Assembly (NCBI GenBank): GCA_029547605.1
Contig: JAKPPB010000063.1
Coordinates: forward strand, 1 to 64,000
DNA: 64,000 nucleotides
Reading direction: 5' to 3'
From: Methanobacteriota archaeon
GTDB taxonomy: Archaea; Halobacteriota; Methanomicrobia; Methanomicrobiales; Methanospirillaceae
Shown here: positions 38,526-44,574 of the stretch, one piece after another
Layout of the letters: each line of letters starts with the position of its first letter
How positions within the stretch are numbered: position 1 is the first letter of the stretch
The notes under the pieces: model-generated
Told to the model about the DNA's origin: nothing
Database searches by the model: none
What the model saw: only the letters and a program-made list of their open reading frames with translations
Made by a program: the position numbers and the translations under genes

Positions 38526-38645
38526 GATTGATGAATATTTCTTTTTAATTATTGATTGGAATTAATCACTTTTATTTTTAATTGAACCTACCAGGTGATT
38601 CGATTAAAAGAACCTTTAACATTCCGCCGGTCGAAGTCTTTTTCC

Positions 38646-39899
38646 ATGTGGAAGGCCGTATCGCTCGAGGATTGGATGGAAAACCGGGTCTCGGAGCTCT
38701 CATCGGTAAGGCCAGTCGTGGAGGAGATCATCGCGAGGGTCGGGAGCGGGGGTGACCGGGCCCTGCTCGAGCTCACCAGGAGATACGATGGAGTTGATGC
38801 CGAATCTATCCTCGTAGGAGAAGAAGAGGTCGAGGCGGCCTACCATGCAGTCAGTGATAAGGTCATCGCAAACCTCATCGAGGCTGACGCGAGGATCTCC
38901 CGCTTCCACGAACTGCAAAAACCAAAGGAGTTATGGCTTGAGGAGGTTGAGCCCGGCGTAGTTCTCGGGGTCAGGAACACTCCCCTTGACCGTATCGGGG
39001 CGTATATCCCGGGTGGGAGAGCTGCATACGCCTCAACTGCTCTGATGTGCACGATTCCTGCGAGGGTCGCAGGCGTACGATCTATCTGCTGCTGCAGCCC
39101 GCCTCCCATATCCCCGATGACGCTCGTTGCGATGGATATCGCGGGCGTGGACGAGGTTTATGCCGTCGGCGGCGCACAGGCGATCGCTGCCATGGCGCTT
39201 GGGACAGAGAGTATCCTCCCGGTCCAAAAGATCGTCGGCCCCGGAAACATCTACGTGACGATGGCTAAGATGCTTCTGCGCGACCGCGCTGAAATCGACT
39301 TCCCGGCGGGCCCGAGCGAGATCGTCGTGCTCGCAGACGATTCCGCACGGCCGGAGTTCATCGCCGCCGATATCCTTGCCCAGGCAGAGCACGACCCGAG
39401 GGCGGCAAGTCTTCTCGTGACCACGGACCCAGGTCTCCCAGGCCAGGTAGGCCTGCACCTGGAAACAGGGATCAGGGACTCGGAGAGGGGAGAGATCCTC
39501 GAGAAAGCCATGGAGAACACAGGATACCTCGTGGCGGCATCCATGGAGCATGCAGTAGAAACCGTGAACCGCGCTGCCGCCGAGCACCTCTCCCTCCAGG
39601 TTGCCGATCCCATGGGTGTCCTGCACGGCATCAGGAATGCAGGAGCCGTCTTCCTCGGGAGCTATTCGGCAGTGGCCTGCGGAGATTATGCATCCGGGAC
39701 AAACCACGTCCTCCCTACTGCGGGGTATGCACAGGTCTATTCAGGCCTCGATGTGCAGCACTTCTGTAAGCGAACCACCGTTCAGCTGATCACCAGGGAC
39801 GGTCTCGAGAGAATGGGGGATACTATCGAAGCCATCGCAGAAGCAGAAGGCCTTGACGCCCATGCCCGTTCTGTCAGGATCCGCAGGCAGTCGTCCTGA
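38646..39899 (+). CDS. hisD: Histidinol dehydrogenase
   Basis: RIGAYIPGGRAAYASTALM, KIVGPGNIYVTMAK, DFPAGPSEIVVLAD, ASGTNHVLPTAGYA; start MWKAVSLEDW chosen. Confidence 0.94.
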   Translation: MWKAVSLEDWMENRVSELSSVRPVVEEIIARVGSGGDRALLELTRRYDGVDAESILVGEEEVEAAYHAVSDKVIANLIEADARISRFHELQKPKELWLEEVEPGVVLGVRNTPLDRIGAYIPGGRAAYASTALMCTIPARVAGVRSICCCSPPPISPMTLVAMDIAGVDEVYAVGGAQAIAAMALGTESILPVQKIVGPGNIYVTMAKMLLRDRAEIDFPAGPSEIVVLADDSARPEFIAADILAQAEHDPRAASLLVTTDPGLPGQVGLHLETGIRDSERGEILEKAMENTGYLVAASMEHAVETVNRAAAEHLSLQVADPMGVLHGIRNAGAVFLGSYSAVACGDYASGTNHVLPTAGYAQVYSGLDVQHFCKRTTVQLITRDGLERMGDTIEAIAEAEGLDAHARSVRIRRQSS

Positions 39900-40055: not shown

Positions 40056-40583
40056 TCAGCTGTGCCGCCTCCTCTTCGCAGCGAGAAGTGCGGCGGCGAG
40101 TGCAAGTGAGGCACCTGATACCTCCCATGGGATCCCAATTTCAGGAGAAGGTGGCCGGGAGAATGTAACATCAGTGTAGGACACGGAGATCTCATCGGTA
40201 TCGGTGAGCCTGTCCAAGTTCAGCGGGACGCTCACCGCATATATCCTGTAGGTTCCGGGGATGAGATGGCCCACGATAAAGCCCGTGTTCCACTCGTACT
40301 CGAACCTTCCGTCGGGATGGACATATGCAGACGTGAAATAGCCTGAACCTGCGGGAAGATGCAGGTTCTCGAGGGTGGCACCGGCGCGGTTCAGTCCAGG
40401 GCCGGTCACGAAGAGGTAAACTGCAATGATATTGGGGATATCTGAAGTTCCGCTGATGTGCACCCGCTCTCCGATGTACGATGTCCCAGGCTGGGCATCG
40501 ATGGAGATTGCCCCCGTGGCAGGGCCCAGAAAGAGCATCAGGCATAAAAGAGCGATTAGGGCCCTTGCGAGGTGCATGATCAT
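40056..40583 (-). CDS. DUF3821-type exported/surface-anchored protein
   Basis: Signal peptide, IGERVHISGTSD...IAVYLFVTGPGLN, C-terminal hydrophobic segment ending AAKRRRHS. Confidence 0.65.
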   Translation of the reverse strand: MIMHLARALIALLCLMLFLGPATGAISIDAQPGTSYIGERVHISGTSDIPNIIAVYLFVTGPGLNRAGATLENLHLPAGSGYFTSAYVHPDGRFEYEWNTGFIVGHLIPGTYRIYAVSVPLNLDRLTDTDEISVSYTDVTFSRPPSPEIGIPWEVSGASLALAAALLAAKRRRHS

Positions 40584-40685: not shown

Positions 40686-41990
40686 TCAGAACTCCATCAC
40701 CATCACTGCTTCCTCCTCCTCTTTGAGCTCACCCTTGAGGTGGTCCGTCTCGAAGTGGTACTGCTCCCATGGATCGTATTCATCGTAGAGCTCGCACTTG
40801 TCCAGGACATCCACGAACTCTTTGAGGAAAATTCGCGGGATCACGTCAACCCTGCCCCCAAACTTGCTGGTCACCTTTTTTATCATCGCCCTTATGAACC
40901 TGTGGGAGACCCTTGACCTGTCAACCTCGGTATACGCGGCAGAGTAGATGTCGATCACCTTGAGGGCGACCTGTTCAAGCTTCTTTGCATCAAACTTTGC
41001 AAGAGTGATCTGGGGCTGACGGGGGTTCCTGAAACTTTCACCTGTCTGGACCACGCTTATGCGGTCATAGAGGGGGGGCAGTGTGCGAATTCCCCTCGGG
41101 CCGTCGAAGAAGGCGGGTGTCCCTGTGAAGATAAAATAGGAATGTGGGAGGTCGCCCCTGTCGAGAGAGTCGACCATCATCTGCAGCGTGCGGTATCCCT
41201 TCTCGCGCTGGTTGCGGGGAAGAGACTGGGTCGTCTCCACCTCGTCTACTGCAACCGCGAGCCCGCTGTAACCGGCACTGACGATGATCCGCAGCAGCCC
41301 CCGAAGGAACGTGAATGCCGTGGCTTCATCCACGTCCCCCCGTATCCCGGCTTTCTGCTTGAACTCTCTTCCGACGTTTGGTTCTGCGCATACCCACCCA
41401 ATTGCGGCCTGCGATGTCTGGAAGTCCCCCGCGTTGTTGGCCCGATAGTAGGTCCGGAGTGCCGCCGCAAGCGAGGTGTTCAGCTCGGATATACCGGCGA
41501 GCGCAGTTTCAATCTCTGCGAGGGTCGCCTTCTCGAGGACCTCGTCGGAGAGAGACTGGTCGCTCACGTTGAGGATCCGCTCCTCGATCCCAAAGAGCCA
41601 TGAATCGATGATGGACTTCTGGGCATGCTCCTCTTCCCGTGTGCGCAGGCTTGCACAGATCTGCTGGTAGATACCTTTTGTCTTGTGCAGTGGCGAGGAT
41701 GAGGATATGACCACGTGGGAGGTCACAAACCCTTTCTCACGCGCCATTTCGAGAGCCCTTGCGACGAGGAAGGTCTTACCGCTTCCGTAATCTCCCCTGA
41801 TGAACTTGATGTCTCCGCCGCCTCGTGCGACGAAATCGAGTTGTGCACCGATGACTCCCTCCTCGACATCGAGGCCGACTGCGATCCTCTCGAGACCACT
41901 CGCGGGGACCGTCCCCCTTCGCAGGGAATTGATGATGTTCTGGCTCTCCTGCCGCTCGCCAGGTTTTCGTTCAGGACCTCTTGTATGCAT
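40686..41990 (-). CDS. BrxD-like (DUF2791) ATP-binding protein
   Basis: NIINSLRRGTVPASGLERIAVGLD, Walker A RGDYGSGKT, Walker B LAVAVDEVET, IFTGTPAFFDGPRGIRTLPPLYDRI. ATG 41990 with upstream GGTGA; ORF track starts at 42011. Confidence 0.88.
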   Translation of the reverse strand: MHTRGPERKPGERQESQNIINSLRRGTVPASGLERIAVGLDVEEGVIGAQLDFVARGGGDIKFIRGDYGSGKTFLVARALEMAREKGFVTSHVVISSSSPLHKTKGIYQQICASLRTREEEHAQKSIIDSWLFGIEERILNVSDQSLSDEVLEKATLAEIETALAGISELNTSLAAALRTYYRANNAGDFQTSQAAIGWVCAEPNVGREFKQKAGIRGDVDEATAFTFLRGLLRIIVSAGYSGLAVAVDEVETTQSLPRNQREKGYRTLQMMVDSLDRGDLPHSYFIFTGTPAFFDGPRGIRTLPPLYDRISVVQTGESFRNPRQPQITLAKFDAKKLEQVALKVIDIYSAAYTEVDRSRVSHRFIRAMIKKVTSKFGGRVDVIPRIFLKEFVDVLDKCELYDEYDPWEQYHFETDHLKGELKEEEEAVMVMEF

Positions 41991-43788
41991 AGATCTCACC
42001 ATCCTTCCCAACCCCCCTCTTCTCGATCACGACGATACCGGCACTGGTCGCCTTCTGAATGATCCGGTTCACCATTCCTCCTGCCCTGCGGGTCCCAAGG
42101 AGGGTCCGGAGATCCATTTCGCTGGCCTGGTGGTGCGCCCGCAGGAACTCGAGGATCTTCTTCTCGTTCTCATCCAGGTCAAGAGAGAGTTCTGCCTGTC
42201 CTGCAGAGGATACCTTCTCATCCTGCAGCGCCGGAGCATATGCGAGGACTGGAAGGTCGCAGAGCGACCGGCGCTTGCATTCTTCAATGAGGATCAGGAA
42301 ATCTTCTGCCCTGATGCTCCGGGATGCCGGGGGGATATAGTCGAGGCCTTCAAGGCAGGAACGCTTGCACTGCGAGGTATCTCCGGCCTCCAGGCAGTGG
42401 GAGGCAGAGACAAGCAGGGTGAGTGCGAGCAGTTCGAGGCCGCGTGAAGAGAGCCCCAGTGCCTTCTCTTCGAGGCGTTCCCTGAGCCGCTCCATGAGGC
42501 GGGGCATCCGGTAGAGGGCGCGGGTATCCTCCATTACCATGCCTGCGACGCGGACGAGATCATCTGTCTTCCTGATGCTGTTGATGACGTAGAGCATCAC
42601 CTTCTCGCATTCTCTCACATCACCGTCTTTCTCGCAGAACCGTGCATATTCAGGTCCACCGGCCAGGAAATCGCTTCGGTATGCCCGGTAATACCATGAC
42701 CTCGCCTCTGTATGATCACCAATATCCTCGTAAAACGATGCCATGGAAAGGAGGCAGACCACATGCGGCTGCGATGCCAGCTTGAGAAGGAGCAGGGACT
42801 CCGCTTCCCTGACGGGGTAATGGGTCCTGAGGAACGCCTGGTAGCGGGCAAGCACCTGTGCAAGGAACGTGGGATCACTCAGGCTCTCCAGCTCGCGGTC
42901 GATCAACCGCGTGAAATGCAGGCGGGCATCCTCCTTATTCTTCAGCTCTGCAAGGATCTCGCACTCTTCCAGGAGATACCGGGGGTCGACTTCGCTTCGC
43001 GAGAGGAGGGGACCAAGTTCGAGAAGAGCGGAAGCCATTTCTCCCCGATCCCTCATCATCCGGACGTAATCGAACCTGATTTCCGGGTCATCCCTCTCTG
43101 CAAGCACTTTTTGGTATTCCACTGCTGCAGCACCTGGGTTGGAGCGTGAAAGAGCCGAGAGGTAACTCCGGGCATATGCCATATCGCCTGTCCGCTCGTA
43201 TGCCGCTTGGGCAGCGGCCGCCATCTCGTCATACTCTCCGGCTGCGGCCAGCGCCTCGATATATTCAATGTCCACGGGCAGGCCACGGCATTCCGGCCCC
43301 TTTCTCACCTCAAGCGCTTCCCGGGGCAACCCGTTCAGTTGCAATGCCTTTGCGAGGAGCAGGGAATCGTCTGCACGGCCTGATCGTGCCACAAGGTGCC
43401 GCAGGACAGGCACTGCTTTCCCGGCGTCGCCTGTTCCAAGGAGATAGGACGCATAGCTCCTCAATGCCTCGAGGTTCTCTGGATCGAGGGCAACGGCCCT
43501 CGCAAATTCGGAGAGCGCACCATCATCGCCCTTCCTCTCAAGTATTCTCCCAAGGTAGCTGTGCACGTGTGACGAACCCGGCAGAGAGTTGGCAAGATCC
43601 CGAAAATACGCCTCAGCCTCGTCAAGACGCCCCATCTGGAAGAGATTTGTTGCGCAGAGGATAGCCACGGAGGGGTCTGCTGATCCGGGGATAAGGTCGC
43701 GACAGAGTGAATACGAGCCTGTGAAGTCTCCCTGTTCGAAGAGCTGGAACGCAAGTCTCTTTTTCTCTTCTGCAGATTCAGCGTCCAT
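41971..43788 (-). CDS. Large TPR-repeat protein with C-terminal winged-helix-like domain
   Basis: 605 aa; TPR-like repeats, C-terminal DENEKKILEFLRAHHQASEMDLRTLLGTRRAGGMVNRIIQKATSAGIVVIEKRG; stop overlaps the downstream DUF2791 start. Confidence 0.8.
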   Translation of the reverse strand: MDAESAEEKKRLAFQLFEQGDFTGSYSLCRDLIPGSADPSVAILCATNLFQMGRLDEAEAYFRDLANSLPGSSHVHSYLGRILERKGDDGALSEFARAVALDPENLEALRSYASYLLGTGDAGKAVPVLRHLVARSGRADDSLLLAKALQLNGLPREALEVRKGPECRGLPVDIEYIEALAAAGEYDEMAAAAQAAYERTGDMAYARSYLSALSRSNPGAAAVEYQKVLAERDDPEIRFDYVRMMRDRGEMASALLELGPLLSRSEVDPRYLLEECEILAELKNKEDARLHFTRLIDRELESLSDPTFLAQVLARYQAFLRTHYPVREAESLLLLKLASQPHVVCLLSMASFYEDIGDHTEARSWYYRAYRSDFLAGGPEYARFCEKDGDVRECEKVMLYVINSIRKTDDLVRVAGMVMEDTRALYRMPRLMERLRERLEEKALGLSSRGLELLALTLLVSASHCLEAGDTSQCKRSCLEGLDYIPPASRSIRAEDFLILIEECKRRSLCDLPVLAYAPALQDEKVSSAGQAELSLDLDENEKKILEFLRAHHQASEMDLRTLLGTRRAGGMVNRIIQKATSAGIVVIEKRGVGKDGEIYAYKRS

Positions 43789-43794
43789 CGGAGA

Positions 43795-44574
43795 TCACCG
43801 TGCAAAACGGAGCCGAAAGAGGCCGGAGAGCATTCGGAGCACGTCCCCCCCTCTTACCCGGGAGTCGCCCCTGTCATGCCAGGTGATGGGGTGCTCCCTG
43901 ATGGTAAAACCAAGGTTGCGTATCCGCCAGAGGAGCTCAACATCGAATTCAAAGCCAGTGGAGACCATCTGTCCAATTACTGCGTCAATGGCTGCTTTTT
44001 TAAATACTTTTGCCCCGCACTGCGTATCTTTGAACGGAAGACCAAACATTACCCTGATGATCATGTTGAACACCCTGCTCTCGAATCTTCTGCCTATCCC
44101 CTGCTCACGTACGATGATCGAGCCCTCTAGCCAGCGTGATCCAATCACCACGTCCGCCCCACTGAGGATTTCGAAGAGGGTGAGCATCTGGGAAAACGAG
44201 GTTGAGGCATCCGCGTCCATGTAGCCTACAAGAGGAGCGCGGGCCTGCCGCATCCCCTCGAGAATTGCGCCACCCTTTCCAAGCCGACCCTCCCTGCGGT
44301 CACAACGGATACAGACATCAGGGTTGGCCCGCGCGAATTCTGAGATGAGCAAGGATGTGCGGTCATCACCCTCGCAGATGCAGATGACCTCACCCTTTGC
44401 CCCTGTAAGATCTGAGAGTAACCTTGGTATCCGTGCCTCCTCGTTGTATGCGGGTATGATCAGGGTGTAAGGAGGAATCCCGCTGCATGGGCCCGCAGAA
44501 CGGGAGGTCTTTTTTATCTCGTCACGGTCTCCGGCAGCAGGTGCTGGCCTGGCACCCGTCTCACTGGTGGCCAA
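43795..44574 (-). CDS. Family 2 glycosyltransferase (dolichyl-phosphate type)
   Basis: YTLIIPAYNEEARIPRLLSDL...VGYMDADASTSFSQML...VIGSRWLEGS. Confidence 0.87.
   Translation of the reverse strand: MATSETGARPAPAAGDRDEIKKTSRSAGPCSGIPPYTLIIPAYNEEARIPRLLSDLTGAKGEVICICEGDDRTSLLISEFARANPDVCIRCDRREGRLGKGGAILEGMRQARAPLVGYMDADASTSFSQMLTLFEILSGADVVIGSRWLEGSIIVREQGIGRRFESRVFNMIIRVMFGLPFKDTQCGAKVFKKAAIDAVIGQMVSTGFEFDVELLWRIRNLGFTIREHPITWHDRGDSRVRGGDVLRMLSGLFRLRFAR

Follow-up and report, generated by a model that had tools for sequence, protein, structure and literature searches.

A BrxD-like ATPase encoded with no BREX genes beside it raises the question of what such a protein does outside BREX. One lies in the window, the whole 64,000-nucleotide stretch of DNA analysed here, from a Methanospirillaceae archaeon. 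The original prediction for this locus coupled the ATPase with a large TPR/winged-helix (wHTH) protein and suggested that the two may be an independent two-component module, annotated only by analogy to BREX. We examined the two proteins and their neighbourhoods, and searched the rest of the genome and the order Methanomicrobiales for possible partners.

A BrxD-family ATPase and its TPR/winged-helix partner

The two predicted open reading frames exist, with the same coordinates, strand and overlap (Table 1). At least 90% of close orthologs retain the first methionine of the ATPase, which supports the ATG at 41990, and a TTG 21 bp further upstream is a possible alternative start. The 20-bp overlap suggests translational coupling of the TPR gene and the ATPase. 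Both Walker motifs of the ATPase proved intact, as had been proposed, and their key residues (G69, G71, K72, D249 and E250) are conserved across all BrxD-like groups compared.

Table 1 Features of the gene pair, its neighbours and the unlinked helicase gene (window positions unless another contig is named).
Feature	Position	Strand	Details
TPR/winged-helix gene	41971..43788	(-)	605 aa, proposed adaptor; TPR families in Pfam
TPR superhelix, residues 6-507	42268..43773	(-)	AlphaFold2 secondary structure
C-terminal wHTH, residues 540-602	41983..42171	(-)	AlphaFold2 H540-552, H557-564, H569-582, E588-594, E597-602
BrxD-family AAA+ ATPase	40686..41990	(-)	434 aa; ATG 41990, stop 40686
Overlap of TPR gene and ATPase gene	41971..41990	(-)	20 bp
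Walker A GDYGSGKT, ATPase residues 66-73	41772..41795	(-)	intact
Walker B VAVDEVE, ATPase residues 246-252	41235..41255	(-)	intact
GT2 glycosyltransferase, neighbour only	43795..44574	(-)	Pfam PF00535
175-aa ORF, N-terminal signal-like stretch, downstream neighbour, not a part	40056..40583	(-)	no Pfam match
hisD, convergent downstream gene, synteny anchor, not a part	38595..39899	(+)	
BrxHI-type SF2 helicase, full-length	G000 (window's genome) contig C119:28634-30775		BrxHI model search of window's genome

At the level of sequence the ATPase belongs to the BrxD protein family: it passes the curated NCBIfam model BREX_BrxD NF033438 (418 bits, cutoff 350) with its ATPase motifs intact. It also matches Pfam PF10923 BrxC_BrxD with 435 bits and, among the PADLOC models, BrxD with 423 bits and SngB with 158 bits. 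An ortholog on JADFCY010000002.1 is 98% identical, and no homologue was found in the phage records searched. Outside archaea, BrxD proteins encoded on bacterial plasmids are the closest annotated homologues, with about 40% identity; the inspected ones mostly lie in BREX-2 or BREX-6 operons, usually adjoining a DEAD/DEAH helicase gene. A more distant homologue from Deinococcus also adjoins a helicase, at a locus with no annotated BREX genes. Saying that the ATPase is annotated by analogy alone thus understates its link to BREX, since it is about 40% identical to genuine BREX-2 BrxD and falls in one clade with it.

The AlphaFold2 model of the ATPase is of moderate confidence (pLDDT 71.6). Fold searches with this model gave weak matches to ORC4, ORC5, Cdc6, archaeal ORC2 and NLR STAND proteins, none significant (E >0.01), the best ORC/Cdc6 match having an E-value of 0.033 and a TM-score of about 0.3. 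The modelled fold is therefore compatible with ORC/Cdc6 at a level short of significance; BrxD has been classed as an ORC-Cdc6 AAA+ ATPase (PMC12839542). Comparison with PDB sequences revealed no detectable similarity to ORC/Cdc6.

For the TPR protein, AlphaFold2 gave a confident model (pLDDT 89.5), and the winged helix in the original prediction was borne out as a predicted fold of H-H-H-E-E topology, in a region with a strongly conserved E..LR..L..RR..G..N stretch. The top Foldseek matches of the model were the TPR scaffolds Ctr9, OGT, NatA and Ski3, which are generic to TPR superhelices. No PADLOC model matched the protein. The possibility of a distant SngA was rejected on a profile comparison probability of 0.5%.

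The pair is fixed in three families of Methanomicrobiales

Six families of the order are referred to here by code, f1 being that of the window. PF10923 was run against 150 Methanomicrobiales genomes, and ATPase and TPR-protein profiles against both phylum and order. Full-score orthologs of both proteins were found only in f1, f4 and f6. A single ATPase of the window type is present in 34/34 f1, 12/12 f4 and 30/32 f6 genomes, the two f6 genomes without it being incomplete bins, and in none of the 72 sampled genomes of f2, f3 and f5; the system is thus not essential to the order. Across the phylum and order searches the TPR protein occurs only where the ATPase does, with an identical distribution. 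All three genes considered below are under purifying selection, with dN/dS of 0.03-0.05 for the ATPase, 0.07-0.18 for the TPR protein and 0.09-0.21 for the helicase; the TPR adaptor is the fastest-evolving of the three proteins.

The TPR gene lies directly upstream of the ATPase gene, in the same strand and order, at all 69 orthologous loci from the three families, and the two overlap or are separated by at most 10 bp at 68 of them. The expectation that the pair would stay adjacent without BREX partners across the Methanomicrobiales therefore holds. Neither of the outcomes named as refuting it, a pair always beside complete BREX operons or an ATPase alone among unrelated neighbours, was seen.

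Apart from these two genes the neighbourhoods vary. The GT2 gene noted in the original prediction is confirmed by Pfam and lies immediately upstream of the pair on the same strand, but it does so at just 33/69 loci and was rejected as a part of the system. The downstream gene that had been called DUF3821 (40056-40583) has zero Pfam matches, so that this label was not confirmed; its cluster (cluster 8) occupies the +1 position at 25 loci and is a neighbour in the window's family only. A second HisD is encoded in the window's genome (contig C104, 12584-13858) and in several f1 relatives, with 61% identity to the HisD of 38595-39899.

An OB-fold/HD (YhaM-like) gene (L117:8485-9462 and orthologs) immediately follows the pair in f4 and in part of f6. 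It also occurs in f2 and f5, which are without the pair, and was not found in f3 or in f1, which has the pair; it was accordingly rejected as an obligate fourth component. In many f2 and f5 genomes lacking the pair this gene is convergent with hisD, at distances from 110 bp to several kb, and f1 retains the pair and hisD with the OB/HD gene missing. These arrangements fit an ancestral order of pair, OB/HD gene and hisD, which makes loss of the system more likely than gain.

The system is neither BREX nor Shango

A search of the whole genome with PF08665 gave no match for PglZ, and PF10923 matched the window ATPase alone, so that no BrxC/PglY was detected. No PglX methyltransferase was recognised among the conserved neighbours of the loci, and no BREX genes adjoin the pair. 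The earlier claim that BREX genes and a BrxHI helicase are missing here stands for the immediate surroundings and, for PglZ, genome-wide; a BrxHI-type helicase gene does exist elsewhere in the genome. NF033438, an equivalog model, nevertheless passes its cutoff on a core gene (40686-41990) in a genome without PglZ, which makes single-gene BREX annotation misleading here. The locus is a cautionary case, in that surveys counting single genes would credit BREX to genomes lacking it.

The ATPase is likewise not closest to SngB of Shango and falls in a separate clade, and the surroundings of the 69 loci yielded no SngC/BrxHI-like helicase (cluster 16). The order also has further BrxD homologues, 25-30% identical and of SngB type, which occur in about 9/150 genomes and, where inspected, lie in SngA-SngB-SngC (Shango) cassettes. 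A patchy defence system and the fixed pair can thus be told apart in the same genomes.

An unlinked BrxHI-type helicase accompanies the pair

Searching the window's genome with a BrxHI model revealed a full-length SF2 helicase with intact SF2 motifs on another contig (540 bits; Table 1). Among the PADLOC models it scores best against BrxHI with 541 bits, ahead of SngC with 366 bits. The genes for the BrxD-type ATPase and the BrxHI-type helicase are apart in other genomes too, and the helicase adjoins the pair in no genome examined; core genes surround it, and purF and a thioredoxin-like gene are often close by. Helicase orthologs (358-1600 bits) were found in 77/150 genomes, all from f1, f4 and f6. 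The BrxHI-type search detected in f2, f3 and f5 just a common Lhr-type helicase, with up to about 250 bits. A second match in the window's genome (C76, 386 bits) was considered as the partner and rejected, being the Lhr-type helicase, which reaches the same level in families that lack the pair. Outside the order, the next best helicase matches belong to a linked dyad of the lineage coded f12 g56.

Cross-tabulation of the ATPase and the helicase over the 150 genomes gave 75 with both, 72 with neither and 3 mismatches, all in bins 74-78% complete. The co-occurrence has a Fisher p of 3e-39, a value not to be read as independent evidence, since the table is not phylogenetically independent, the RNA-polymerase tree is not resolved and a single joint loss is allowed. 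The species tree was built from four proteins of the RNA-polymerase gene region, and f1, f2, f3 and f5 are poorly resolved in it. FastTree implied two joint losses, and IQ-TREE set f1, f4 and f6 together on the same side of a branch supported at 39, reducing these to one possible event; a count of independent joint losses was therefore dropped. As one joint loss may account for the phyletic pattern, the strongest evidence linking the two genes comes from rate covariation and tree congruence.

Trees were constructed for the ATPases and helicases of 40 systems, in 19 of which the two genes are adjacent. The window-type ATPase groups with BREX-2/6 BrxD at 100% bootstrap, and the window-type helicase groups with BREX-2/6 BrxHI at 96%. 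Shango and haloarchaeal pairs group together, apart from the window type, in both trees, and f12 is also apart. The deep branches thus match in the two trees, which would not be expected of an unlinked helicase of other origin; the two proteins share their ancestry with the BREX-2 dyad.

In 24 f1 genomes, with CTP synthase, thioesterase and GT2 as controls, ATPase-helicase covariation gave a partial Mantel r of 0.795 (p = 0.0005), the highest of all pairs tested, the next being 0.57. With RpoB' as a further unlinked control (14 genomes), r was again 0.795 and the next pair gave 0.65. The helicase-TPR values were 0.43 and, with RpoB', 0.40; ATPase-TPR covariation was weak, at 0.28 and, with RpoB', 0.05. 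Because only a handful of controls were used, the majority of them located close to the pair, the evidence is good but not genome-wide. The module is accordingly probably not self-contained as first suggested, since an unlinked BrxHI-type helicase shares its distribution, tree position and rate covariation.

Proposed mechanism and alternatives

In BREX-2, BrxD is tightly paired with BrxHI as a dyad and has been suggested to load or activate it (PMC12839542). In almost all other lineages examined, the BrxD-like ATPase and the helicase are encoded side by side. The third protein differs between lineages, with PglZ upstream in BREX-2, the TerB-type SngA in Shango, a 258-aa protein in f12 and the TPR/wHTH protein here, which suggests one shared ATPase-helicase engine whose specificity part can be exchanged. 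We propose that the pair represents two thirds of a split BrxD-BrxHI-type system, in which the ATPase would be co-produced with the TPR/wHTH adaptor and act, probably as a physical complex, with the unlinked helicase. The TPR/wHTH protein would pick either a site on DNA or a partner bound to it; the ATPase would assemble there, switch with ATP, and load or activate the helicase on DNA. Rate covariation and the common distribution give indirect support for such ATP-dependent loading. The most likely job would be chromosome maintenance, that is, replication-fork or repair processing, as opposed to that of a mobile anti-virus cassette, because the three genes are single-copy, fixed in three families and placed amid core genes. 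We consider it about an even call that the pair belongs to a BrxD-BrxHI helicase-loader that is split, fixed in the chromosome and equipped with a TPR/wHTH adaptor, and that serves chromosome maintenance more probably than patchy defence.

The same parts and mechanism could instead be directed at foreign DNA, as a resident, constitutive anti-virus or anti-plasmid system fixed in the three families rather than mobile. Most close relatives of the ATPase and helicase with annotated context do lie in BREX-2/6 and Shango. However, the genes occur in every near-complete genome of the three families, in single copy amid core genes and with low dN/dS, a pattern different from that of the patchy Shango cassettes in the same genomes, and no methyltransferase, PglZ or nuclease is conserved at either locus. 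We therefore regard defence as a serious but clearly less likely reading and rank maintenance ahead of it. It is improbable that the pair is instead a signalling or transcription unit, a STAND-like TPR/wHTH regulator switched by its ATPase, with the helicase working elsewhere: TPR and wHTH domains are common in regulators, the adaptor evolves fastest, and the non-significant ATPase fold matches include NLR STAND proteins beside ORC/Cdc6, but the helicase shares the ATPase's distribution and its strongest rate covariation, and elsewhere the corresponding genes adjoin in nearly every lineage examined. If the genes were instead the decaying leftovers of a BREX-2 operon, this would explain why BREX-2 BrxD and BrxHI are the closest relatives and why the genomes keep these parts while lacking the remainder of the operon. 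All three genes, however, have intact motifs and low dN/dS; this, together with retention in nearly all f1, f4 and f6 genomes and a conserved TPR/wHTH partner lacking in BREX-2, makes the reading very hard to credit.

A wider proposal, to which we give slightly less than an even chance, is that the BrxD-BrxHI helicase-loader is a core chromosome-maintenance system in three methanogen families, BREX-2 and Shango being defence versions of a general AAA+/helicase module with specificity conferred by the swappable third protein. The kinship of these genes to parts of BREX, in genomes where the remainder of BREX is missing, suggests a shared origin of defence machinery and a machine for routine DNA handling. 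If the maintenance reading is true, it adds a further helicase machine with both a housekeeping and a defence use, a combination already proposed for YprA helicases (PMC12458937). We found no report in the literature of a biochemical role for BrxD or BrxHI, and PMC12839542 offers loading as a suggestion; a natural version lacking every other BREX part, and having a single adaptor and a single helicase, offers a minimal system for a direct test of the loader idea. Among open-licence papers we found no description of the split system, which is not proof that none exists.

Comparison with known systems

The ATPase resembles ORC/Cdc6 initiators and helicase loaders in its proposed fold class and weak fold matches, but differs in that sequence similarity is undetectable in the PDB and the fold matches fall short of significance. 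A TPR scaffold acting with a helicase recalls, by analogy only, Ski3 and Ski2 of the Ski complex; Ski3 is among the fold matches of the TPR protein, and BrxHI has been called Ski2-like (PMC12839542). However, Ctr9, OGT and NatA score as well as Ski3 or better, and the present system has no Ski8, no exosome link and an extra AAA+ ATPase.

The cassettes of f12 g56 (L219-L221) also encode a BrxD-like ATPase followed immediately by a BrxHI-like helicase (714 aa). In contrast to the window system, their helicase is linked, their third gene encodes the different 258-aa protein, and they form a separate branch in both trees. One of these three-gene cassettes (L220) lies near an apparent type I restriction methyltransferase gene.

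Shango shares the order of large protein, BrxD-like ATPase and BrxHI-like helicase, and its SngB and SngC are homologous to the ATPase and the helicase. It differs in its ATPase (the window protein scoring far lower against SngB than against BrxD), in the unrelated SngA, in its separate clade in both trees, and in being patchy in Methanomicrobiales, where the window pair is fixed in three families.

Two further arrangements of such genes were observed. A four-gene cassette at L131:6397-12009 (-), L130 (+) and L133 (genome G060) encodes two divergent tandem BrxD-like ATPases of 411 and 368 aa, together with a short BrxHI-like helicase of 527 aa and a protein of 315 aa with no Pfam or PADLOC match, and is possibly an undescribed defence system. 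On a plasmid of halophilic archaeon DL31 (L144, 5455-17061), an 830-aa protein, an SngB-like ATPase and a helicase are followed by metallophosphoesterase, SMC and NurA genes.

Closest is the BREX type 2 dyad, for example in Polaromonas pPNAP01 and a Streptomyces sp. NBC_01334 plasmid (L140 and L142), whose ATPases are 35-41% and whose helicases are about 31% identical to the window-type proteins over their full length and group with them in the trees. Unlike BREX type 2, the system described here has no PglZ genome-wide, no BREX gene at the locus and an unlinked helicase; it carries a TPR/wHTH protein at PglZ's place, and its genes are fixed in the core genome.
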